Positions 592 to 52,624 of a stretch of 64,000 nucleotides of DNA are shown here, one piece after another (position 1 is the first letter of the stretch; each line of letters starts with the position of its first letter). A model generated the notes under the pieces. It was not told the DNA's origin and ran no database searches. It saw only the letters and a program-made list of their open reading frames with translations. A program made the translations under genes and the position numbers. Origin of the DNA: Thelephora terrestris (lineage: Eukaryota > Basidiomycota > Agaricomycetes > Thelephorales > Thelephoraceae); contig WIUZ02000022.1 in NCBI GenBank assembly GCA_015956445.1, positions 434,001 through 498,000 of the forward strand. Direction: 5' to 3'.

Positions 592-1966
592 ATGTCCGCG
601 CAGCCTGTCTATCGCACCTGTGAATCTTCGCTTGGCCGTCTACCCACCAAGCTCCCAACACCTCGAACAAAGCGTCTTCACCGATGGATGTTCAGCGACC
701 TCCTCAAACACCCATTGGAGATCGTTTCGCCCCCGGCTCTGCAAGGGATTGAGAAACATATCGCGCCAAAGCACTTGAAATATATTGGCTCGTACAACTG
801 GATCGATGCTCCCACGCCAACCATCATCGTTCCAGGTCAGTCAATTTTCCCGTTCGTCCCTAGATGATCTGTGCAACTCTGTGCGTCACCACTCGCTGTG
901 TACAGGGTGTCCTCCGATATGGGCGGAGAAGCGCGCACCGCTCATCGTTCCCCGCGACAACGGCAGAGATTTCATTGACCAGAATGGATACCACATGAAG
1001 AGGAGATTTACCCTCCTACCCCTAATCAGAGCAGTCCAAACCATCACGAACCGGAAGACTTCCAAGTTCGATTGGCCCTCAGTCGATTTTGTGGCCGACC
1101 GTGGCGCTCTGAGAAAGCTGGCCGCATGGGCGAACGACAAGTCTGGTCATTGGAGGATGGATACTCAACTTGCGGGCCATAACACCGTCCTCATCAACAG
1201 CTGGCCACCAGTAACGAAACAGACAATCGGACACTCCGATTCCTATGGCTACAATTTTGAGAAAGCATGCACACACCCTGCTCCCGGCTGTGAAAGTGGA
1301 ACAGGTCATCACCGGATTATCACCTACGTGCGTCATCTACAATACCATCCGGACGTGTACACCGGAAATAATTGCCAATAGGATTTCGGCGGCCTAACGA
1401 TGGTAGTCCGGTTCGAAGTTGATGCATGCCTGCCTTTTCCAACTACCCGCTCACGTCGCAAGTCCGGTAACGCCAGGAACCACGCCAAATCCGCTCCAGG
1501 TGCGCAAGCCTGGGGAACAGACACACCTACCTTCCGAACGGTCAGCAAACCCACCCTGCGCTTCCCACATGTGGCTGTCATCCGAGCTGGATCTCGCGTC
1601 CCCCAATCACACCTGATCGAACTCAAGACATATTCCGGGGCGAAGAAGCACTGGAACAGGTCATATCCACAACTTTTCTTGTCTCAGACACCCCACATCT
1701 ATTACGGCGCACACAAAAATGGCGAGTTCTCGGAGATCAAGAAATACACCCTTGGAGAACCTCACTTGAAGCCTATCGATCATAATGCACAGGTCGCATT
1801 CAAGAAGCTCAAGGTGGCGCTGGAGGCCATCCAAGAACTCGTTGGGAAACACGGAACGAACGGACGGATAACTCTCGTTTGCACCGGGAAGGAGCTGGGA
1901 GTGTATCAGAGGGAAAATGCTGGTAGTTGCCTACCCAAGTACGCCTTGGCACTCTTCAGACTCTAG
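592..1966 (+). CDS. RAI1/DXO-like protein, paralogue A (all motifs kept)
   Basis: Three exons (592-835, 906-1327, 1382-1966) give 416 residues. The RAI1/DXO fold (5'-end decapping and 5'-3' RNA surveillance nucleases) is suggested by its ordered motif blocks. Motif I is FVADRGALRKL (Arg about 147, like the TWRG block). Motif II is GYNFE (Glu about 200). Motif III is EhD in RFEVDA (Glu234, Asp236). Motif IV is EhK in LIELKT (Glu302, Lys304). It is followed by YPQLFLSQTP, like the family's AQSFL-G-P block. All likely metal and catalytic residues are present, so it could be active. The introns at 836-905 and 1328-1381 sit at the same codons as in the two neighbouring paralogues. Proteins of this type are, from memory, often annotated in basidiomycetes as geranylgeranyl pyrophosphate synthetase; no prenyl-synthase DDxxD motif is visible. 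The substrate is unknown. Confidence 0.72.
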
Positions 1967-3800
1967 AGTTTCTCCTGGGTGATTTTTGTATTTTTAGCGG
2001 ACTGTGCAATAGATATCTATGTAACTCAAATCGGGTTCACTCAAAAGGAGGCTTTCGCAACAGCCACAGTTTTTGCACCCTCTTCCATCCACACCACCAT
2101 GATATCCCGCGGCAACAGAGGGCCTTTTGGCCACCCTGGTCCACACAGGGGAGGTCGTACCTCGAACTCCTTTGAAAGGGCAAAGTCGGACTCGGCTTGC
2201 AAGGACCTCTACGAAGGTCTCGATGAAGTGTCCACCGACGTCATCCATAAACCTTTCCTAGACCCTCGGGCTTCGAGGAAAGATATAAAACCCCAGAATC
2301 TTGTTTGCCTCGGTTCATACACCTGGATTGAGGGAACTGTGGCCAGCATCATCGTCCCTGGTGAGTCTGTGATGCCTTGCCACACTTTTTGTCACCCCGC
2401 CACACTTTCGAGTCGAGGGCGATCGCACTAACCTTGACCCAGGTTCACCAAGGATATGGGTCGAGAAGCCCCTTCCGATCTGCGTACCGTTAGATCATGG
2501 CTGCGACTTCATCGACCAGAACGGCCACAGAATGGGGTCTCGCACCCTCTTCCCACTCATCCGAGCTGTCCAAGATGTCGAGTCGCAATCAGGAACTAAA
2601 GAGAAAGACAAATTTGACTGGTCTTCCGCCGACTTTGTCACCGACCGAAATGGGTTGAGGAAACTCTTGAGATGGATCATTGCCAGGCCTGGAGACCCGC
2701 CTAGGGACTTTAGGATCGACTTGCAGTTGGCCGGTTCGAAGACCGTCTTGATGAATCGGTGGGAACAGTTCGCCAAACAACAGGGCGGCTCTCGTCACTC
2801 GTATGGGTTCAATTTTGAAGAGACCATGACCATTCCAAGTCCTGGGTGCGAGAGAGGAACAGGTTACCACAGGATCGTCACATACGTGCGTCTACTTGCC
2901 ACCGCGCTGAAATTTTGGGTCTTGCAAAGCTGATACATCCGCACGAACCTAGGATTTTGATGGCTTGAAAATGGTCGTCCGATTCGAAGTTGACGCATGC
3001 CTTTCTCCCAAAGACCCGGGTTCCAAGGCAACCAAGAAACGCCGGGGCGTTGTGGATGGAGACCCAGAAGATGACCTCTTGGGAGCACTATCCGGTCTCT
3101 CCATTGGAACGAACACTCGTTCCAGCGGGGTGTTACCACCATCTCCACTCACTACCACGGACCTAAAGATCTCGAGAGCCGGTACTCAAGTCCCTCAATC
3201 CAACCTGATCGAGATGACGGCCCGATCAGAAGCCTCGGCCGCTAGATTCGATTGGAGCGAGGCGTATCCCCAACTCTACCTCTCCCAAACGCCCTATCAT
3301 TACCTCGCCGTTCACCGCGGCGGAACGTTTTTCTCGCTCGCAAAGCGTGAGATTGGAAAGCAAGATCTTGTCGCGATCGAGAGAAGGGCGCAACTTGGAT
3401 TCAAACGGCTCAGGAAGGTGTTGGGAGAGATCCAAACTAGGGTGAAGAAAGGTGGAGCGAATGGGCGGATCAGTATCGTTTGTAATGATGGGGTTTTGAA
3501 GGTCCACGAGAGAACCAGCAAGGAAAGTTGCTTGTCTGACGATTCGCTCGCTCTTTTCGAACGAAAACAAGTCTAGGCGGCGATTTGTATGCAAAAGAAT
3601 TATGTCTCCAATTTTTGTATAGTATCTTCCGTAGTCCTATTCGGACTTGCTTTTTCTACTCAGCCCAGGGACTGGGTAACGTTGAGCATGTGCGCCCTCC
3701 TCGTCACGGGGATGAAAACGGGGTATTCACCGACGAGTGAGGCGTTCCTGGTGCGCGTCTCCTGTCAGGTGTGTCAATCACAAACCCCATCTAGCCTGTC
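1765..3800 (+). repeat. Segmental duplication, left copy (A tail + gene B)
   Basis: This stretch covers the last part of paralogue A, the A-B intergenic DNA, gene B and about 220 bp downstream. It corresponds in order to 3835-5990 (relic, intergenic DNA, gene C, downstream DNA). Shared non-coding landmarks include AGATATCTATGTAAC, TTTTGCACCCTCTTCCATCC just before the start codons, and GAGGCGTTCC after the stop codons. The breakpoint between copies lies at about 3800-3835. Confidence 0.8.
2099..3576 (+). CDS. RAI1/DXO-like protein, paralogue B (EhK lysine lost)
   Basis: Exons 2099-2360, 2443-2885 and 2953-3576 encode 442 residues. The RAI1/DXO-like blocks are FVTDRNGLRKL (Arg about 156), GFNFE (Glu213), RFEVDA (Glu247, Asp249) and LIEMTARS, where the EhK motif reads E-M-T (Glu322, Thr324). 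The lysine that completes the active site in the family is therefore replaced by threonine. YPQLYLSQTP follows. Relative to paralogue A there is a different N-terminus (Gly/Arg-rich, MISRGNRGPFG) and an insertion with DPEDDLLGALSG between motifs III and IV. The ATG at 2099 was chosen because paralogue C has the same start context (CACCACCATGA). It could be catalytically dead, for example an RNA-binding or regulatory form, or use altered chemistry. The introns are 82 and 67 nt. Confidence 0.72.
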
Positions 3801-3834
3801 TCTAACTTGGGAGATATTCGGGCGGGGGTATATG

Positions 3835-4230
3835 TAGAGCCAATCGTTCAGATTGCACAGGTAGCATTCAAGAAACTGGCATTGAAGGCTATCCAAGGAC
3901 CCGTTAGGAAGCACGGAACGAATTAGTCTCGTTTGCAATGGAGTTGGGAGTGGGTGACTGTCCGTAGGATCTACACAGTGTACACTTGAACCCAGATGAA
4001 TACCTAAGGACATTTAAGGGAACTGTCAATTAGTGTTAGGACCCCGACCGCTCCATAGGGTCAGGCACACTGCGAAACACGGCTAGTGGCACCCTTCCAC
4101 GACGGATATCTTGTTTCTCATCTAATGTACTCCTACGGATAGTCACCCAGTGTATCAGAGGGAAAATACGGACGGTCGTTTAAGCAAGTACGCCTTGGCC
4201 CCCTTCGGATCTCAGGATTTATTTGTATTT
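3835..4230 (+). pseudogene. Truncated relic of an A-type RAI1/DXO-like gene
   Basis: The DNA at 3840-3950 and 4150-4215 matches the 3' end of paralogue A (about 1765-1965) base by base with scattered changes. The recognisable shared pieces are GCACAGGT-GCATTCAAGAA, AAGCACGGAACGAA, CTCGTTTGCA and GTATCAGAGGGAAAAT. Only the last quarter of the gene is represented. The reading frame is interrupted, and a 197-bp MITE-like element splits it. The relic lies directly upstream of paralogue C just as the end of A lies upstream of B, so it was carried along when the A-tail plus B segment was duplicated. Confidence 0.8.
3952..4148. mobile_element. MITE-like DNA element, 197 bp, 18-bp TIRs
   Basis: The left end reads GGGTGACTGTCCGTAGGA. 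The right end is TCCTACGGATAGTCACCC, its reverse complement with one mismatch. AGT occurs on both sides (3949-3951 and 4149-4151), and removing the element plus one AGT restores the uninterrupted sequence of paralogue A (GGGAGTGTATCAG). This is direct evidence for an insertion with a 3-bp target duplication. It has no coding capacity, so it would be non-autonomous. A 3-bp duplication and GGG ends recall PIF/Harbinger-type elements, but the target is not TWA, so the family is left open. It inserted after the segmental duplication that made the relic. Confidence 0.85.
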
Positions 4231-4337
4231 TTTAGCGGGCTCTTCAATAGATATCTATGTAACCCAGATCGGGTTCGCTCAAAAGGAGACTTTCGCAACA
4301 AGCCACAGCTTTTGCACCCTCTTCCATCCACACCACC

Positions 4338-5787
4338 ATGACATCCCGTGGCCACAGAGGGCCTTTTGGCTATATTGGTTCACACAGGGGAGGTCATACC
4401 TTGAACGCCTACGAAAGGAAAAGGCCGGACCCACCCAGTAGAGACCTTTATGATGGTATCGACAAGGCATCCACGGAAGTCATCTCCAAACCTTCCTTAG
4501 ACAGTCGGGATTCTGTGCAAGATCTGCAGCCCAAAAATCTTGCCTTCCTCGGTTCGTACACCTGGATCGAGTCAACGGTGCCTAGCATTATCGTCCCTGG
4601 TGAGTTTGGGAGCCCTGCCACACTTTTTGTTACCCCGCCACACTTTTGAGTCGCGGGTGACCAAACTCACCTTGACCCAGGTTCACCCAGGGTATGGGTC
4701 GATAAGCCCCTTCCAATCTCCGTACCATTGGACCACGGCTACAACTTTGTTGACCAGAACGGCCACAGAATGGGAGCTCGTGCTCTCCTCCCGCTCATCC
4801 AAGCGGTCCGAGATGTCGAATCCCAATCAGGGGTTAAAGAAGCATTCGATTGGTCTTCGGTTGACATTGTGACGGACCGGAATGGGTTGAGGAAGCTCTT
4901 GAGATGGATCATTGCCGGATCTGGAGACCCACCTAGGGACTTTAGGATTGACATGCAATTGGCCGGCTCCAAGACCGTCTTGATGAATCGGTGGGAGCAG
5001 TTCACCAAAGAACAGGCTGGAACTCGCCGTTCGTATGGATTCAATTTCGAGGAGACTATGACTATCCCTGGTCCTGGGTGTGAGAGAGGGACAAGTTACC
5101 ACAGGATCGTCACATACGTCGGTCTACCTGTTGAAAATTGTGATCTTGCCGAGCTGATATATCTGCACCTAGGATTTTGATGGCTTGAAGATGGTCGTCC
5201 GATTCGAAGTTGACGCCTGCCTTCCTCACGAAGTCCCTGATTCCAAGACAACCAGGAAACAGGGTGTTGAGGATGAAGACCCAGAAGATGCCCTCTTAGG
5301 AGCACTGTCTGGTCTCTCCATCGGAACGAACACTCGTTCCAGCACGATGCCACCACCATCCCCACTCGCTTCCGCCGATCTAAAAATCTCGAGAGCCGGG
5401 ACTCAAGTCCCTCAATCGAACCTCATCGAAATGACGACCCGCTCAGAAATTTCGGCCGCCAAATTCGATTGGAGCGACGCATATCCCCAACTCTACCTCT
5501 CTCAGACACCGTATCATCACCTGGCCGTTCACCGCGGCGGGACGTTTTTCTCGATCGCAAAGCGTGAGATCGGAAAGAAAGATCTTGTCGCGATCGAAAG
5601 CAAGGCGCAACCGGGTTTCAAAAAACTGAGGAAGATATTGGGAGAGATCCAAACTAGGGTGAAGAAAGGTGGAGCGGATGGGAGGATTAGTCTCGTTTGT
5701 AAGAATGGGGTCTTGAAAGTCCACGAGAGAACCAGCAAGGAAAGTTGCTTGTCCGAGGATTCGCTTGCTCTTTTCGAACGAAAATGA
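4338..5787 (+). CDS. RAI1/DXO-like protein, paralogue C (EhK lysine lost)
   Basis: Exons 4338-4599, 4681-5117 and 5173-5787 encode 437 residues, closest to paralogue B along the whole length. Blocks: IVTDRNGLRKL, GFNFE, RFEVDA (Glu245, Asp247) and LIEMTTRS (Glu319, Thr321 where the family has Lys). The loss of the EhK lysine is shared with B and so predates their duplication. The frame is open throughout despite many changes relative to B, which suggests the protein is still under selection. The upstream 130 bp and downstream 200 bp also match those of B. The N-terminus is Gly/Arg-rich (MTSRGHRGPFG). The most likely roles are as for B. The assignment to the fold rests on motif order and spacing only. 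Confidence 0.72.
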
Positions 5788-5990
5788 GTCTAGACATTTT
5801 GTGTGCCAAGGAATTTCGTCTCCGACGTTGTACAATATCTTCCGTAGTCAATTTGATTTTTCTAGCTCAGGGATGGGATATGTGCGCCTTTCTCGTCTTG
5901 GGGAAGAAATTGAGGCATTCACCTGTGAGCGAGGCGTTCCCAGAGCACGTGTCAGGTCAGCTGTGCCATTCATGAACCACATCTGGCTCA

Positions 5991-6628
5991 TCCGTAGACT
6001 GTCTCGTATTGATGGATGTTATTCGGGTGAGGGGACACGTATCTGTCAATGATCGATGGTGGAGCACGACAAGTCCGCAAGGCCGTCGATTGGTGACCAC
6101 CTGTACACGCATCACGCATCCCCGTTGTCTGTTTGCCTTTCAGATCAATATGTGCGTCTAGTGAAGGCGCCTGCACATTTTAGGAACAAGGCAAGCTCGA
6201 TGTGGCATCTCCATGGGATAGAGCGGAACTTACGAAACCAGTCGAAACCGATATTTTCAGAACGTACTTGCAGTCTTTTGCCAACTCCAGCGAGTATTCT
6301 GGAATCGCCCTCCATCAAAGGTCTCTGTAAGTCGTACGAGATAAGAGCAGTAGTGCCATCGTCGGCTGTCGATGAGGTTGGATGAACTGTACATGTCCTC
6401 TTGCGAGGCGAGAACACGGGCATCTCCAAGTCATTGATTCCGTTACTGCTTGTCAATGAATGAAGGGCCATGGCGAGGAGACTCAGACCCGGCCACTACG
6501 ATATTGTACCTACCCTCCTGTCGATACGTAAGTTACCAGATGTCCAAAGAAAATAGAGAAAAAAGCGGGAGTGAAAATATCTTGATTGGTGAACGTTTGA
6601 ACGACAATGAAATAGAAAAGATTAAAAA
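5991..6628. other. Intergenic, nothing recognised
   Basis: Between gene C and the 5S gene the frames are short and show no family resemblance. No repeats or RNA genes were seen. Confidence 0.5.
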
Positions 6629-6630
6629 AA
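6622..6630 (-). terminator. Pol III oligo-T terminator of the 5S gene
   Basis: Seven adenines on the plus strand (6624-6630) give a run of seven T on the transcribed sense of the 5S gene immediately after its conserved GTGGTT end. This is the usual termination signal for RNA polymerase III. Confidence 0.85.
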
Positions 6631-6746
6631 CCACAGCACCCAGGATTCCCGCGTGGTCCCCCACCGTGGTACTAACTTGGCGGCACCCTGGTTAACTTCG
6701 CAGATCGGACGGGATGCGGTGCTTTCAAGGTCCTATGGCCGTGGAT
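6629..6746 (-). rRNA. 5S ribosomal RNA gene (solitary)
   Basis: Read on the minus strand, 118 nt begin ATCCACGGCCATAGGA and end GGGTGCTGTGGTT, the classic fungal 5S termini, which pair to form helix I. The conserved internal stretches GCACCGCATCCCGTCCGATC, GAAGTTAACC, TTAGTACCACGGTGGGGGAC and GGGAATCCTGGG are all present in order; they carry the internal Pol III control region. No disabling change is visible, so it is probably functional. It is not next to 18S/28S sequence, so it is either a dispersed 5S gene or an orphan copy outside the rDNA repeat. Confidence 0.95.
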
Positions 6747-7615: not shown

Positions 7616-8480
7616 TCAAAGAAAAAGCGGACCAGCGACGCCGCCAGCCAGCGTGACTATGAGAGCAAGAACCGTCAGCCCTGCACTAGCTGGACTGTAG
7701 GTCGTATCTCCCGCGTTCCTCTTCTGGACTTTGACGGATCCGGTGCCAACGGGGCTAGAGATGTTACGCAGAGACTTTGTGGGGTTCATAATAGGGGTCG
7801 CGGACTTGTAGAACATGGGTGCATATGGGGCACCTGTCGAGTCGAACAAATGAAGCTTGTAACCGTCAGTTGGATCTTGGAATATTTGGTACAACGGGTA
7901 GAACTCGGTCTGGTTGTAGTTCTCGATGAAGTTGGTTACCGCTTCGCAAACGTTCTGGATCTGCTGGTATCCGTCGCCGAAAGGATTGAGTGTGATGGAG
8001 TCGGCGGTTTGGTCGACAACGTAGGTGCCGTGGTGCCAGTTCAAGACACCAGTAATGCACTTGTGCTTTGTGGCTGCAGACAGAAACATGATGAACACCC
8101 ACTTGGGTCGCAAATGGACAGGTGGCTCACCGTTGCTCTTAAACCGATAACGGGCCAGCTCGTAATATCCGTCAGTGGTACTTGACATCCACGTTAGTCG
8201 GAGGGACCACGTATGCTCAATGGCCGTACTCACAAGGAGACAGAGACACCAGTGTTCTGGGGGTAATTGAATGTCGTGTTCTCAGGGGTGCAGAAACCCT
8301 AGAAAGGCGTCCGTCTGTTTAGTCCCAGGGAGATTATCAAAAAAAAATGAAACGTACCGGGCCAGTGAGGACGGCTCCGCTACCTGTTGACCACGTTCCT
8401 GGCAGGAGGTTGGCATTGGTGACCTGGGCGAAGGTGGGGACGGAGAGAAGGAGAGCAACGACAAGCGAAAGGCCAAACAT
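7616..8480 (-). CDS. ROT1: ROT1, ER-resident chaperone for cell wall synthesis
   Basis: Starting at the ATG at 8480 and splicing at least three introns (one at 8075-8130), the product begins MFGLSLVVALLLSVPTFAQ, a signal peptide. It continues with the Rot1 signature: LPGTWSTGSGAVLTGPGFC, SFTTDGYYELARYRF, CITGVLNWHHGTY, YPLYQIFQDPTDGYKLHLFD and GAPYAPMFY. A C-terminal hydrophobic segment (SAGLTVLALIVTLAGGVAGPLFL) would anchor it in the ER membrane. In yeast, Rot1 is an essential ER membrane chaperone needed for beta-1,6-glucan synthesis and N-/O-glycosylation. Length (about 225-230 residues) and order fit the family. Introns elsewhere fall at CCG|gtacg and TCCTT|gtgag. Confidence 0.93.
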
Positions 8481-9680: not shown

Positions 9681-12104
9681 CTATTTCTTGTTGCGCGTAG
9701 ACTTCCTGACCGGGGCCTTCACGGTGGGAGCATCGGGTTTAATCGCTGCAGATCTGCCCCTCCTAAGTTTCTGAGGGGGGTTGCTGGCAGAAATCGAGGG
9801 GACTCCGCCTTCGGGGTTGATGGTGGGCTCAGGCTTGACTGAAGGGGCGGTTTTTAACTTGCGGGCCCGTGCCCCAACCGCTCGCTTTTTCTTGGGTGAG
9901 GGGGGGAGAGGATCCAGCGTGTCCTGCCTCTCGACTTCGGTTTCAGCAGCAAGCGCTTTTTTAGCTTCGGAAGCTCTCAACGAAGTCCCGGTCCTAGGCC
10001 TGATGGGCGTTTTGCGGAAGACCTTGTATTCCTTGTCCTCGGCCTCGCCATTGAGGCTAAACCGAGTAGACTTGTGGGAAGCCGTGGCGGTTTCGTATTC
10101 AGAGTTGAGAACGACGTTGTTGCCGTGCATGTCATTCTGGGAGACTGCTGCAGGCAAGTTACCCGAGATCTTATTGGCCTTGACGCTTAGAAGAACCGGT
10201 CCAAAGACGTCTTCCGGAGAAAGAACCGGTGCGTTTGCAGATAGCTGAGGTTTAGCCTGAGGGGTCTTCAACTTCAACCCGGATTGGGTGTTTTCCGTGG
10301 AGGCACCTTGGCCGTTATCTGCGGTCAAGGCAGGAAAGGAGTGCGACATCCCAAAGCTGGAGATTATGATTCCGGTTGGATCTTCTTCATCCTCGGATTC
10401 TCCTTGTTCGACTACCCCGCCAAGCATCTTGAAAACTTGAGACTTTTCGATCTCGGAATCCTTTTGTATCAGTGATGTGCCGATGAGCGCGAGAGAGCCC
10501 TGTTTATGTGCAAGTTGAGATGCAGGTTCTGAGGCGTGCGTTAAAGCTCCTGCATGAGGGAGGGAGGGAACGCGGCCGGCTTCTGGAAACATTTCGTGTT
10601 CCCAAGTTGGCTGATGTGTGAGGAGCCTTCGTCTCTTAGCAGATACCCTGCCACCGTTGATACTTGCCTCGACCTGAAGTAAGGTGCTACGGTCGAGCTC
10701 CACGGCAGCGGCGGATGGACCGGCAATGTTCCCGGCGTCTTTCTCCTCTTCACCCTCCGGTGTGGAAACGCGCTTGCGTTTGCGGTTGAGAACGGCACGA
10801 GAGGGCGAAGGAGTGCGGAGAACCGGACGGGGAGGCACGAGGTGTTGAGGCACCAGTTGAAAGGTGGCAGCGGGAGAGGAAGATGGGATATATGACTGTG
10901 CTAGTGGGTGGCGGGGATGGGGGACATTGGTGGGCGGACCCATGGCCAGGGCTGCAGCGTTATTCATGGCCTCGCGCTTAAACTCTTTGGAGATCCTATC
11001 AAATTCCTCATCAGGAAGCGGGAAGAGCAACCCAGTATCTGAGGCAATTCTGAGGTCAGCTCCAGAGCGGTTGAACGTAGAATCGTCGGACGCGAGATCG
11101 GCATGGTGAGGAGGAACCGAGAAGTCGGAGCGCATTTCTATCATATTTTCCACATACTCGAGCCCGTTTTCGTCTTCGTGGCCGGGAGGGAGTGAAGGCT
11201 GTCTAGCGGGAGGAGTCTCCGGTCTGAAGGGGTTTTCTTCTTCGGCACGGTTGTTAGGGGATTCAGGCGAGGAATACCCAAGCACCTGCCGAGGATGATC
11301 ACGAGAAAGATCGGGGTAGTGTGTGTTCCTAAGAGGTCCATATGAGCAAACGTCCGGCGATTGAGATCTTCCAGCTGAACGTACTTAAGAAAGTGCTCTC
11401 CGACCATGGGGCCGGTTCTACTCGCATTTTGGATGTACATCAATGTAGGAGACAAGTCTTGTTTCCTGCTAAAATGTCAGGCGCGTTTACAAATGAGGAG
11501 GTTGACGGACGTACGGAACGTCATCTTCATCGTCCGAGGATTCGCTAGAACCCAGGGCCTCAACCCCTACAGGAGGATCTTCAGGCAGTTGCTGGTGTGT
11601 CCCCTGATCGCCAGTTTTCTGTCGTTGGTCTACGAAGAGTTCTATTCTCCCCCTGACACCCTTGTACGAATGTAACTGGGACCCGGTCCGGGTGGCATAT
11701 TCCAAGATGGCAGCCGCACGGTAGTTCAGGGCTTCGACGTATTCGAGAACCTCACGATCACTTTTGAAGAGCACCCTGGCGGTGGCATCAAGTGTGTCTA
11801 GCTCCTCCAGGTCAGCTGGGCGGCTGCCCTCCGGCTCCGGGGTGGGATCGGCCTTCCGGTAAGGCTCGTACCGGTATTGGCCTTGCTGGTTTGCAGGATC
11901 GTCAATCGATTCGGTAGGCTCAGACTTTTTGGCCGCCTTCTTTGCCAGTGCCTTCTTCTTCTTCTTCTTCTTGCCCGCAATCTTCTTTGTTGAAGTGGGG
12001 TCGGTAGTTGACGCGCCGCCGATGGGGTTCGGGGGGGTGGGCGGTTGCTCCTGGGCGGGAGCTGAGGAGGGTGGAAGTGCAATATCAGAGCCTTGGAGAG
12101 ACAT
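9681..12104 (-). CDS. Unidentified, probably nuclear, low-complexity protein
   Basis: A three-exon model fits well: 12104-11515, 11468-11385 and 11328-9681, joined through GTACGT donors, giving a long continuous protein. The start MSLQGSDIALPP was taken at 12104; an in-frame ATG at 12254 is possible. Near the N-terminus is a run of seven lysines (GKKKKKKKALAKKAAKK), followed by a more structured acidic stretch (LEELDTLDATARVLF, EVLEYVEALNYRAAAILEYA) that looks helical. The middle and C-terminus are disordered, with nuclear-localisation-like basic patches (NRKRKRVSTPE, SAKRRRLL, SPKKKRAVGARARK) and a KSTRNKK end. No domain was recognised. A chromatin or kinetochore-associated role is only a guess from composition. 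Confidence 0.6.
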
Positions 12105-12617
12105 TGGATAAGTCTTGTGGTAGTCGTTAACTTTATGGCGTTGAGCAGCGGCACAAGGTAGGAGTTCAGTGGTTAATGAGAAAAGGGAGATCAAGGAAGT
12201 GGTCGTGGTTATGGTTAAAGGGGCAGACGAGGAATCATGGGTGCGAGGTCCCATTTAGATATGTGAGAGAACAATGGGAGACGTGGGCCATGGCTAATCA
12301 CCACGGCGTCGGTTCCAGTTTTGGGGTTTGTTCCGTTGAATCCCTCAGATATCCATCGATCCGCAAACTTGGGAAAAGCCCCGGGACGTATTCGCCTCCA
12401 TAATGGACCCTACTATCGCAACCTAGAGATCGCATTTTGTTGAGTAATCATAGAGTCAGAACCCAGAGAATGGAGGACAAGGCGGCAGCGCTAGGAACGC
12501 CCACTACCAAATCGGGAATCACGCCTCACGCGTCATCTGACATCAGCAATTCAAACCGCCCAAGGCGAACTCGTGACTTGTCCATTCGCCACATCCACGC
12601 TTCACGCCCTTCTCGCC
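12105..12617. promoter_or_regulatory. Divergent intergenic region
   Basis: About 510 bp separating two divergent starts (12104 minus, 12618 plus). It should contain both promoters. No individual binding site was identified with confidence. Confidence 0.4.
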
Positions 12618-13685
12618 ATGCCCAAGCTTCGCCTGAAACGCACTCCTGCGGAGGAGGAGGAGGAAAGGGCTCAACGCAAAGCAAGAAAAGCTCAGCGCAA
12701 GGAGACTAAACCCCTCGGGCAAAAGTATGAATCTCACGGCTCATCTTCCACTTCCACACGTGATGATCATCACCGATCCAAACGCCGTGCTACAGGCTCC
12801 CGAGAAGATGCCAGCCATGATACGGACTACGAGTCTGATGATCGCCTGGAATGGCTGGAGGAGAAGGAACGCCGGAAAAAGGAAGAAGAAGAGTTCCAGC
12901 AGAGATTGTGGGACGAGCTTGGCCACCAGGAGAGGCTGGATAACCTCACGAGTAACCTGAATTCGTATCCTCACATCCCCCACCGCTGGAAATCTAGTGG
13001 GATGGCCGATTTAGAGGATGTCGTCTACAGCGATCCTAACCTGATGGATGACGAGCATTACGCTGAGTGGATGAGGGAAGGAATGTGGAAGTGCGTCTCG
13101 TTTTTTGCTTGCAAATGCTGTTTTCCCTCACGGGAAACCCTGTCCAGGAAGCGGAACGCTCAAGCATACCAAGAACAGCTCAAGAAAACGGCCGAGGAGG
13201 AGGCTCGACTGAAACTTGCTGATCAACTCGCATCCAAGCGGGCTCGCTGGGAGGCTCGCGAGGCTGACGAACGAAGGAGGCGAAAACGGTCGAGAGAACG
13301 CAGAGCAAAGCAGAACGCCCGCAGTGACTATGACACACGCTGGGATATACTTCTATCCACTGGCGAAACCGCCGGACAGCCCCTCACGTTCCAGGATATT
13401 CCTTGGCCTTGTCAGATTGCATACTCCTCTTCCGATGGTAGAAAGTTCTCTCTGGACGACCTTACCACCGAGTCCATATCAGAATTTCTGTTCAGCTCTG
13501 AAATGGAACGCTCGGAGTCTGCGCAGAGGGTCAAGACGATCAGGGGGACTCTACTTCGTTTTCATCCTGACAAATTCGATGGCCGAATTATTAGCAGGGT
13601 CCCGGAAGCTGAAAGGGCCATGGTCCGGGAAGGAGTTGGAATTGTGGTACGGACAATGAACGAACTGCTGAAAACTGCCAAGTAG
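12618..13685 (+). CDS. NFKBIL1-like protein with C-terminal J-like segment
   Basis: Two exons, 12618-13090 and 13148-13685, with the intron removed from GGAA|gtgcgt to tgtccag|GAAG so that MWKKRNAQAYQEQL reads through. The N-terminal part is highly charged (EEEEERAQRKARKAQRKE, an acidic/basic coiled coil). The C-terminal half carries the pattern of NF-kappa-B-inhibitor-like 1 proteins: YDTRWDILLS, FQDIPWPCQ and RGTLLRFHPDKFDGRI, the last like the HPD turn of a J-domain. No ankyrin repeats are visible, unlike animal NFKBIL1, but fungal forms commonly lack them. In animals the family is linked to RNA processing; the fungal role is unknown. The start at MPKLRLKRTP is the first ATG after the long upstream flank. 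Confidence 0.7.
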   Translation: MPKLRLKRTPAEEEEERAQRKARKAQRKETKPLGQKYESHGSSSTSTRDDHHRSKRRATGSREDASHDTDYESDDRLEWLEEKERRKKEEEEFQQRLWDELGHQERLDNLTSNLNSYPHIPHRWKSSGMADLEDVVYSDPNLMDDEHYAEWMREGMWKCVSFFACKCCFPSRETLSRKRNAQAYQEQLKKTAEEEARLKLADQLASKRARWEAREADERRRRKRSRERRAKQNARSDYDTRWDILLSTGETAGQPLTFQDIPWPCQIAYSSSDGRKFSLDDLTTESISEFLFSSEMERSESAQRVKTIRGTLLRFHPDKFDGRIISRVPEAERAMVREGVGIVVRTMNELLKTAK

Positions 13686-50662: not shown

Positions 50663-52363
50663 CTAGGTGGTGAGGACCGGGCTGAGATTGAGCTTATGGA
50701 GTCCTTGTTCTTGCATGCGCTTGAGGAGGAAACTGATCGGCGTAGCATAGGTGATGTCCAAGGAGGACGCGTCCTTGCCAGTGCCACCGGTTAGTAAGCC
50801 GCCGATGCGCCCGTGGCCATCGATAATGACAGCACCCGAGTCGCCCTTTTCGGAAAAGGCGCGAGACTGATAGTCGAAGGGGAGGATGGCCCATTCTTTG
50901 GAGGTCCTTGGATTATCATCTTCGTAGCAGTAACGGGCGTAGGAGCAGACGTTGTTGGCATGGCCGACGGTCAGGCCAGTGGTGCTACCACGCTTGATCA
51001 CCGTGAGGCTCCGGTGATTGTTCTTGTCGACTGCAGTCGGGTGGCGCATCTCCTCGTCCGGAATGGTGCCCTTGAGCCTCAGAAGACGGTCGAACGGATA
51101 CTGGAAGGAACGGGGCTCCTGCCGAATGGGGGACATCATAAGACTGAAAGCCCCAGGTGAGATGCGGTTACCGAGGTCGACGGCATTGCCATCAAAATTG
51201 CTTGTGTCGATCTTGGAAGCGTCAATCTCGATGACGGCCCAGTCCTCGGTATAACCCTCGCTGCTGCTACCGACACCGAAGTTGATGGGAGGGGAGAGGA
51301 TGACATGGCCTAGAATGCGATTCTCCGGGGTGGCCCAGCCATTCAAAACATCCTGGTGCAAGGTTTTGAGACGTTCAGCTGCCTCCTTTATCTCGTCTAA
51401 CTCATTCTGGCGCTTATCGCACGCTGCCCGGTCGTTTTTCTCCTCAGCCCCTCTGATGCAGGTCTCTCGATACTCGGCAGAAAATCCATTGAGTCTACTC
51501 TCGTGCTTGATGGATTTAAGGTAGTTGCTGAATGCCACATCACCAAAGAGCGTGACATTACAACGATTCTGGTCGTCATCCTTAAACTCGAAGTGCTTGT
51601 TCTCGTTCTTGTCCTGCGGGAGAATGACATGGCGAGCGGTGACGAGTAGGAGCCTCTCGGTGTTCTCGCCCTCAGTAATAAAGAAGCCACCGGTACCCTC
51701 GACCCAAGGTGTTGATTGTGCACAGATGGGGAGACCGAGCGTGGTGGTAAGAGGTTCGCGAACATCCGCGATGGGGTCAGAAAAGTAGTTAGATGCAGAT
51801 GTGAGGAGCTTGGGACCAGCCGAGAGGGAAACAACCGACTCGCGGATCTCGACGTTAACCTTGTTAATGTTGTATTCTTGAAGAATCCCCTTGCACTTGT
51901 AGGCCACAATGACGCCATCATCGCCAGAGAGAGATGTGGGCGTCACACCAATCCAGAGGATAACACGGGCAGTGGGCTCTCCGGCGTCCCCGATGCGCAC
52001 AACGTCAGTGCTGGTCCACTTCACCTTCATCGAGTCTAGAAGGGCGTGGATCTTGAGGGCCAGGTCGTCTTCCCAGACCCCCCGGATCGGGTGGTTGCCG
52101 ACGGGGTGGAGTTCCTTGTCTTGCGAGTATGCCTCCGGGCCGGTGGGCTCCACCCATGGAATGCCGGATCGGGCGACTAAGACTGGACGAGAGGGCAGGC
52201 GAACGTAATAGCAGTACGCCTCCGTCTCGGACGGAGGAGTCAGGGGCGTAGGGGAAGAATTCTTCAGTGGGGGGATTTCTCCTGCGCCCAGGGAACCACT
52301 GTGGCTAAGACCTAAGGAAGTGGTCATAAGAGGGGAGTGGGAAGTCTCATACCGGTTAGCCAT
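50663..52363 (-). CDS. Intronless trypsin-fold serine protease-like protein
   Basis: A single uninterrupted frame; the first ATG is at 52363 (MANRYETSHSPLMTTS), giving about 566 residues. The C-terminal half has a plausible chymotrypsin-type triad: LLVTARHVILP (His), EDWAVIEIDAS (Asp) and SEKGDSGAVIIDGHGRIGGLLTGG (Ser in GDSG). An Arg/Glu/Lys-rich helical insert of about 80 residues (SRLNGFSAEYRETCIRG to RLKTLHQDV) lies between the His and Asp blocks. There is no signal peptide, so it should be cytosolic. Such proteins are found as lineage-specific families in Agaricomycetes; from memory they are usually annotated only as hypothetical. The absence of introns contrasts with almost every other gene here. 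Confidence 0.72.
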   Translation of the reverse strand: MANRYETSHSPLMTTSLGLSHSGSLGAGEIPPLKNSSPTPLTPPSETEAYCYYVRLPSRPVLVARSGIPWVEPTGPEAYSQDKELHPVGNHPIRGVWEDDLALKIHALLDSMKVKWTSTDVVRIGDAGEPTARVILWIGVTPTSLSGDDGVIVAYKCKGILQEYNINKVNVEIRESVVSLSAGPKLLTSASNYFSDPIADVREPLTTTLGLPICAQSTPWVEGTGGFFITEGENTERLLLVTARHVILPQDKNENKHFEFKDDDQNRCNVTLFGDVAFSNYLKSIKHESRLNGFSAEYRETCIRGAEEKNDRAACDKRQNELDEIKEAAERLKTLHQDVLNGWATPENRILGHVILSPPINFGVGSSSEGYTEDWAVIEIDASKIDTSNFDGNAVDLGNRISPGAFSLMMSPIRQEPRSFQYPFDRLLRLKGTIPDEEMRHPTAVDKNNHRSLTVIKRGSTTGLTVGHANNVCSYARYCYEDDNPRTSKEWAILPFDYQSRAFSEKGDSGAVIIDGHGRIGGLLTGGTGKDASSLDITYATPISFLLKRMQEQGLHKLNLSPVLTT

Positions 52364-52624
52364 GGATACCGTAATGCAGCTTGAGACGAAAGTTAATGCA
52401 GAGGTTATCGGAGGAAGGGAGGACACTAGATGGCAAGGAAGAGTTGGTCACTTTAGGGGGTTTGGCGTGCGCGATCGCATCCAAGACCGGATGGCATCCG
52501 GTCTTGGATAGGCTGGTATCCAGGGGGGGACTGCTGTGGGGGCCCGGGAATCAAGGGGGGATGCTCTGGTCTTGGATGGGAAGAACATAGAAAATGGCTC
52601 ACCCGTCTCGCACCTCACCGTGCA
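52364..52624. promoter_or_regulatory. Upstream flank of the protease-like gene
   Basis: Contains the perfect inverted repeat at 52479-52509 and otherwise no recognisable element; it ends where the duplicated amine-oxidase sequence begins. Confidence 0.3.
52479..52509. repeat. Perfect 14-bp inverted repeat (hairpin)
   Basis: ATCCAAGACCGGAT (52479-52492), three bases, then ATCCGGTCTTGGAT (52496-52509). The arms are exact reverse complements, and the outer two of the three central bases also pair. It sits about 115 bp upstream of the start of the intronless protease-like gene, next to an 8-bp palindrome GCGATCGC (52471-52478). It might be a dimer-binding operator or simply a cruciform-forming relic. 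Confidence 0.8.

Follow-up and report, generated by a model that had tools for sequence, protein, structure and literature searches.

A locally duplicated family of divergent RAI1/DXO-like genes in Thelephora terrestris, with a constrained pair lacking the motif IV lysine

Introduction

At the beginning of a 64,000-nucleotide stretch of DNA from the basidiomycete Thelephora terrestris (GenBank assembly GCA_015956445.1, contig WIUZ02000022.1, positions 434,001 to 498,000 of the forward strand; hereafter the window, from whose first letter all coordinates are counted), three neighbouring genes, called A, B and C here, carry motifs of the RAI1/DXO family, and two of them have a threonine at the place of the motif IV lysine. 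Two questions are raised by this locus: whether the genes really belong to the family, and what the loss of the lysine means for proteins that appear to be maintained without it. We found that the observation, first made in an initial annotation, is real and was correctly read, the locus being a locally duplicated, divergent RAI1/DXO-like family with a lysine-less pair under constraint. The six motifs of the DXO/Rai1 family are used as defined in PMC4513879, where the lysine is part of motif IV; this and the other papers cited are represented here by parts of their text, to which our statements about them refer.

Results

The interval 592-5787 given for the cluster proved exact, the ATG of gene A lying at 592 and the stop codon of gene C ending at 5787. 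All three genes are on the + strand and are open after removal of two short introns each. On the basis of the Pfam RAI1 match and the motifs, RAI1/DXO-like proteins of 416, 442 and 437 amino acids are predicted for gene A (592-1966; exons 592-835, 906-1327 and 1382-1966), gene B (2099-3576; exons 2099-2360, 2443-2885 and 2953-3576) and gene C (4338-5787; exons 4338-4599, 4681-5117 and 5173-5787), respectively. The introns, of 70 and 54 bases in A, 82 and 67 in B, and 81 and 55 in C, occupy positions common to the three genes, intron 1 within the Gly codon of I-V-P-G and intron 2 between T-Y and D-F. The donor of intron 2 in C (5118-5123) is GTCGGT, compared with GTGCGT in B; a CTGAT branch-like site and the acceptor are retained, and splicing of this intron may be weaker, though not clearly lost. 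Three Arg-Gly (R-G) pairs are found in the first 30 residues of B and of C, and none such in A.

RAI1 (PF08652) was the sole Pfam family with a significant expectation value (E) for the three proteins. A scored 31.1 bits (E 1.9e-7), above the gathering score of 26.8, and B (25.9 bits, E 7.5e-6) and C (25.2 bits, E 1.2e-5) came just under it. The match lies mostly in exon 2, and its best stretch in B and C continues beyond motif III. When a profile of A, B and C was compared by hhalign with that of five solved DXO/Rai1 sequences (mouse DXO and four fungal Rai1), the probability was 81-89% and the P-values were 1.3e-5 and 2.4e-6 in the two directions, with the motif I Arg, G-Y-x-F-E and E-V-D paired with their DXO/Rai1 counterparts; the score of 45.97 was reached in none of 100 column shuffles, the best of which gave 21.67. 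The RAI1/DXO-like identity proposed earlier is thus supported by Pfam and hhalign, and weakly by the Foldseek search described below, and we consider it highly probable that A, B and C are members of the RAI1/DXO family.

Other assignments were also considered. The initial annotation had remarked that such proteins in basidiomycetes are often labelled prenyl synthases; a prenyl-synthase identity was rejected, no prenyl-synthase Pfam family having appeared for A, B or C at a maximum E of 10, a setting at which the filters of the scan drop most matches above about 0.1. A partial literature search gave nothing that links geranylgeranyl pyrophosphate synthetase to RAI1 in fungi, nor anything on basidiomycete Rai1 decapping. 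A Pet127-type mitochondrial nuclease was rejected because none of the three proteins had such a Pfam match, and DUF7755, which stayed below its cut-off (E 0.091 for the whole of A, 0.01 for its exon 2 by itself), was dismissed as noise. In viral contigs the A/B/C alignment gave 293 pattern stretches and A exon 3 gave 4, and in prokaryote genomes the A/B/C alignment gave 117, none of which was confirmed by tblastn.

The motif blocks (R-block, G-aromatic-x-F-E, E-h-D, the E-h-K position and Gln) occur in order in all three genes, as had been claimed. The motif I Arg is R147 in A, R156 in B and R154 in C, and D-R-G-A-L of A is aligned by hhalign to W-R-G-H-L of DXO. Motif II (G-Phi-x-Phi-E), aligned with GYKFE, reads GYNFE in A and GFNFE in B and C, its Glu being residue 200, 213 and 211 of A, B and C, and motif III is E-V-D in all (A 234-236, B 247-249, C 245-247), aligned with E-V-D of DXO. 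At motif IV the residue positions bear out the reading of ELK in A (302-304) and EMT in B (322-324) and C (319-321). K304 of A is encoded by AAG (1625-1627), and T324 of B (3217-3219) and T321 of C (5434-5436) by ACG, all on the + strand; the two codons are one base apart. A sequencing error was rejected as the source of the change, because B and C have this ACG in common although their aligned coding sequences differ at 216 positions. B and C both still have the four metal-binding acids, together with the Arg and the Gln. The PD-(D/E)XK pattern, an acid followed by acid-x-K, is present in A and is without its Lys in B and C, the strands that bear it being those of a low-confidence model.

Motifs V and VI depart from the family pattern, and they do so in A too, which goes beyond the motif list of the initial annotation. 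The Phi-h-Q part of motif V (K-x4-Phi-h-Q) is present in all three proteins as Y-P-Q, with the helix Gln at residue 319 of A, 342 of B and 339 of C. The Lys is off its usual place in all three, where His is found in A and Asp in B and C; a basic residue lies two places before that position (K310 in A, R333 in B, K330 in C), and in hhalign the motif V Lys of DXO falls opposite a gap. At motif VI, which is G-h-R in the family and G-h-K in yeast Rai1, an ungapped alignment gives G-A-H in A and A-V-H in B and C, and with the one-residue gap introduced by hhalign a Lys of A is paired with the DXO Arg, B and C carrying Arg there. A was therefore rejected as a fully canonical DXO, the basic residues of motifs V and VI being displaced. 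In CaRai1 the motif V Lys and the motif VI Arg touch the RNA backbone (PMC4513879), so the spacing of these motifs suggests that A, B and C may hold nucleic acid differently from DXO.

A number of results pull against the family reading. Exon 3 alone had no Pfam match, and the part after motif III alone scored 16.68, a value reached by 3 of 100 shuffles, so that motifs IV-VI are weak. In the best alignment of this part, L-I-E-L-K-T of A stands opposite Y-V-E-L-K-T of DXO, and Y-P-Q-L-F-L-S-Q-T-P-H-I-Y-Y-G opposite W-A-Q-S-F-L-P-G-V-P-H-V-V-A-G, and the order of the two is correct; a forced global alignment of the part was meaningless. A hidden Markov model made from the five DXO/Rai1 sequences scored weakly in a three-sequence search (E 0.0024 for A, 0.0057 for C and 0.013 for B), and the A/B/C profile gave no match at E <=10 among PDB sequences. 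The alignments available to AlphaFold were very shallow, with five rows for A exons 2 and 3 and three rows for B exon 3; the model of the former, with a mean predicted local distance difference test score (pLDDT) of 32.8, was unusable, and that of the latter, with 47.6, was poor overall. Foldseek with the poor A model returned five DXO/Rai1 chains in 46 matches, at E 1.4 or worse, and placed an unrelated enzyme at rank 1, and none of the 307 matches of the B exon 3 model passed E 0.001.

Part of the B exon 3 model is nevertheless fair (62-74 per ten-residue block), namely residues 81-160, which comprise the E-M-T strand, the Gln helix and the next strand of this low-confidence model. Yeast Rai1 ranked first among its Foldseek matches (E 0.008, probability 0.85, TM score 0.27), and Rai1 chains made up 9 of the best 50 of the 307. 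Of the structural agreement with DXO that the initial annotation had anticipated, the top rank of Rai1 is in its favour, whereas the low confidence of the models and the lack of a match past E 0.001 are not. We regard these predictions as weak support for the family assignment and not as proof of the fold. By sequence, the three genes arose through local duplication and encode divergent RAI1/DXO-like members of the PD-(D/E)XK superfamily, with the fold unconfirmed.

The history of the cluster can be read from the similarities between its parts. A and B are 43% identical (179/415 aligned), A and C likewise 43% (178/415), and B and C 79% (344/437). Because the A-B difference far exceeds that between B and C, the split of A and B must have preceded the duplication that gave B and C; synonymous sites are saturated between A and B. 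The segment 1900-3795 (+ strand), which contains the end of A, B and the flanks, has 80.5% identity over 1,897 aligned columns with 4149-5987 (+ strand), which contains the end of an A relic, C and the flanks. The relic, found by blastn, tblastn and three-frame translation at 3838-4219 (+ strand) between B and C, is a 3' fragment of another gene A copy, now decayed: the piece 1770-1903 of A exon 3 matches 3838-3952 with 72% identity in blastn, tblastn pieces of A lie at 3831-3923 and 4150-4206, and all three forward frames contain stops. The repeat of 1900-3795 and the match to A exon 3 together imply that the duplicated unit started inside the last exon of A and carried B. We thus read B and C as a tandem duplication in which the copy of B became C, and the A piece as having been severed from its gene by this duplication and having decayed afterwards. 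The relic marks the boundaries of the duplication. The window contains no further copy besides the three genes and the relic by tblastn of A and B, other matches having E 0.39 or worse. The synonymous divergence (dS) between B and C ranges from 0.28 in the linker to 0.70 in residues 61-165 of B, and this unevenness along the gene may reflect gene conversion.

After the duplication, B and C were kept under purifying selection. The ratio of nonsynonymous to synonymous divergence (dN/dS) between them is 0.245 (0.177-0.328 in 500 bootstraps); it falls to 0.161 in the core and is higher in the first 60 residues (0.557) and the linker (0.444). Their differences fall 59, 41 and 114 times on codon positions 1, 2 and 3, and the coding indels, of 6, 3 and 6 bases, are all multiples of three. 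In a neutral simulation in which B and C each received 108 random changes with the observed transition share, 4 of 5000 runs remained stop-free, and 6.5 stops arose on average. With A as outgroup, 17 changes are placed on B and 18 on C. The earlier suggestion that the frames of B and C are maintained therefore stands on the dN/dS, the in-frame indels and the simulation. Because Thr is common to B and C, the change from Lys is by parsimony most simply older than their duplication, and the results on selection then imply that B and C were both preserved once the lysine had gone. The time of this loss cannot be read from A and B, since part of their agreement at the catalytic site is older than it: the chance that seven catalytic-site residues agree between A and B is about 0.3% if the 43% identity is uniform. 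The same chance for B and C is 19%, which is uninformative.

A less favourable yardstick is given by the non-coding sequences. B and C are identical at 70/81 positions of intron 1 (86%), 39/55 of intron 2, 104/117 of the 5' flank (89%) and 149/197 of the 3' flank; introns and flanks pooled are identical at 362/450 positions (80%, 54 gap columns left out), and the coding sequence at 84%. Since the coding sequence does not exceed intron 1 or the 5' flank in conservation, the constraint looks weaker by introns and flanks than by synonymous sites, and this detracts from the case for selection.

Outside the cluster, a match to the full length of 5S ribosomal RNA (Rfam RF00001, 106.3 bits) lies at 6628-6746 on the minus strand, less than 1 kb downstream of C. 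The window has 54 frames of at least 150 codons, cluster included, and 20 long frames outside the cluster were scanned. The one closest to the cluster, an open frame at 7619-8281 on the minus strand, matches the fungal endoplasmic reticulum chaperone Rot1 (Pfam PF10681, E 1.1e-25). This frame, the 5S rRNA gene and the introns of the cluster are in keeping with a fungal source. The long frames 9684-11384, 11490-12254, 12495-13682 and 50666-52447 (255-594 codons) had no Pfam match at E 0.001.

Discussion

What does the change of the motif IV lysine to threonine mean for B and C? The initial annotation took it as the loss of a residue needed for hydrolysis, but this is not borne out, because some active PD-(D/E)XK restriction enzymes carry E, Q or N in place of the K, namely E in BamHI, Q in BglII and NotI, and N in MspI (PMC4081073). 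In DXO the lysine is only "possibly" involved in the activation of water (PMC13213243), and Lys255 contacts the 3' phosphate of a cap analogue (PMC7293010). The portions of the literature looked through for Lys255 or motif IV yielded no mutant of that lysine alone. To judge from the motif, E-M-T may lower the rate; a dead enzyme is not established.

The explanation that we prefer, with somewhat less than even confidence, is that A is probably a nuclease, and that B and C are probably binders of 5' ends with weak or no hydrolysis. With all four metal-binding acids in place, as well as the Arg and Gln of the pocket and the Lys of motif IV, A would be an active metal-dependent nuclease or 5'-end hydrolase. 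Its contacts to the body of the nucleic acid are possibly unlike those of DXO, given the displacement of the basic residues in motifs V and VI; the shifted spacing itself is observed directly. In B and C the site should still bind metal, since the four metal-binding acids are retained, and with the Arg and Gln kept as well it would also bind a 5' phosphate or cap. These two proteins would hydrolyse slowly or not at all and would mainly bind 5' ends or a partner, and their RG-containing N-terminus might help in contacts with RNA or protein. If B and C are folded and bind metal, they make a natural test of the role of the lysine in 5'-end hydrolysis. A broader proposal, which we think unlikely, is that an old fungal branch of DXO/Rai1 gave rise to two forms, an enzyme that has the lysine (A-type) and a partner that binds metal without it (B/C-type). 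The partner would assist or oppose the A-type at RNA 5' ends, as a sensor of the cap or 5' phosphate and not as a nuclease. If A-type and B/C-type genes are widespread in fungi, such proteins could be better annotated.

The retention of every metal ligand in B and C tells against our preferred explanation, for a dead protein has no need of them, and it leads to a rival account that we hold to be less probable but a serious one: B and C are still active nucleases in which the lysine is auxiliary and the four acids with two metal ions catalyse, the place of the lysine being taken by the Thr with a water or by the basic residue that precedes the helix Gln by nine places (R333 of B, K330 of C). 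The preserved acids, Arg and Gln, the low dN/dS of the core, the restriction enzymes with E, Q or N for K (PMC4081073) and the guarded wording on the DXO lysine (PMC13213243) all agree with such activity, although the lysine belongs to a defining motif of the family (PMC4513879) and Thr is not among the replacements named in PMC4081073. The analogy with DXO could also mislead on function altogether, if the proteins are PD-(D/E)XK nucleases that descend from RAI1 but have exchanged the mRNA 5' end for another substrate such as DNA or structured RNA. In all three proteins the Lys of motif V and the Arg of motif VI do lie off their canonical positions, statistical alignment support extends to motifs I-III only, and the DNA nucleases RecE and PvuII appear among the lower Foldseek rows. 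We find this substrate change quite improbable, however, because the proteins still have the pocket Arg, the G-aromatic-x-F-E block and the Gln, of which the Arg and Gln bind pyrophosphate in DXO (PMC13213243), because the best Rai1 chains rank above the DNA nucleases in Foldseek, and because hhalign, by opening a gap of one residue, pairs a Lys of A with the Arg of motif VI, so that this contact may survive.

A further account has B and C as pseudogenes, or as redundant copies of recent origin that are heading for decay, with the lysine change as an early loss of function. The same duplication did leave a dead fragment of A, the intron 2 donor of C is GTCGGT, and the coding sequence (84%) is no better conserved than intron 1 (86%) or the 5' flank (89%). 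Decay is nonetheless hard to reconcile with a dN/dS of 0.245, with indels that are in frame only, and with 4 stop-free runs in 5000 under neutrality; moreover, the change is shared and thus predates the period in which both copies stayed intact. We therefore give this account very little credence.

Compared with DXO/Rai1 (mouse DXO, yeast Rai1 and Dxo1, and S. pombe Rai1 (din1)), the three proteins have motifs I-III and Phi-h-Q in the same order and the RAI1 match, and A also has E-h-K. They differ in the displaced motif V Lys and in a motif VI that matches G-h-R without a gap in none of the three, in the Thr for the motif IV Lys of B and C, and in a long variable linker between motifs III and IV. 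With the PD-(D/E)XK restriction enzymes, B and C share a superfamily active site in which the lysine is replaced, but those are DNA enzymes, and Thr is a replacement unnamed in the source (PMC4081073).

The cluster is not a new kind of system. The initial annotation supposed that an expanded family with active and inactive members would be novel, but tandem DXO clusters (PMC13129544) and non-catalytic homologues (PMC7293010) are already known. C. elegans has eleven DXO homologues, with three tandem clusters among them (PMC13129544), and these EOL-1/DXO clusters resemble the present locus as a tandem expansion of DXO homologues, though in another phylum. In Arabidopsis, a catalytically inactive DXO1 (AtDXO1) complements most knockout phenotypes, and the N-terminal extension of the protein interacts with RNMT1 (PMC9839713); most functions are thus separable from catalysis there, in a single gene, unlike the cluster of A, B and C.

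A parallel to B and C is offered by eIF3d and Cutoff, which are called non-catalytic DXO homologues (PMC7293010); according to a review, Cutoff (Cuff, a Drosophila Rai1-like protein) is without key catalytic residues (PMC11125864), and PMC9283932 mentions neither Cutoff nor Cuff. DXO mutants whose design drew in part on the sequences of eIF3d and Cutoff had altered acids (PMC7293010), from which we infer that loss of acids marks this type. In B and C, by contrast, the four metal-binding acids are present and the change is at the lysine, so B/C and Cutoff/eIF3d have probably undergone losses of different kinds, Cutoff and eIF3d being compared by description only. If B and C are folded relatives of DXO that bind metal without the lysine, they are a further case, beside Cutoff and eIF3d, of a drift of the DXO family towards binding, one in which the metal site has stayed intact.

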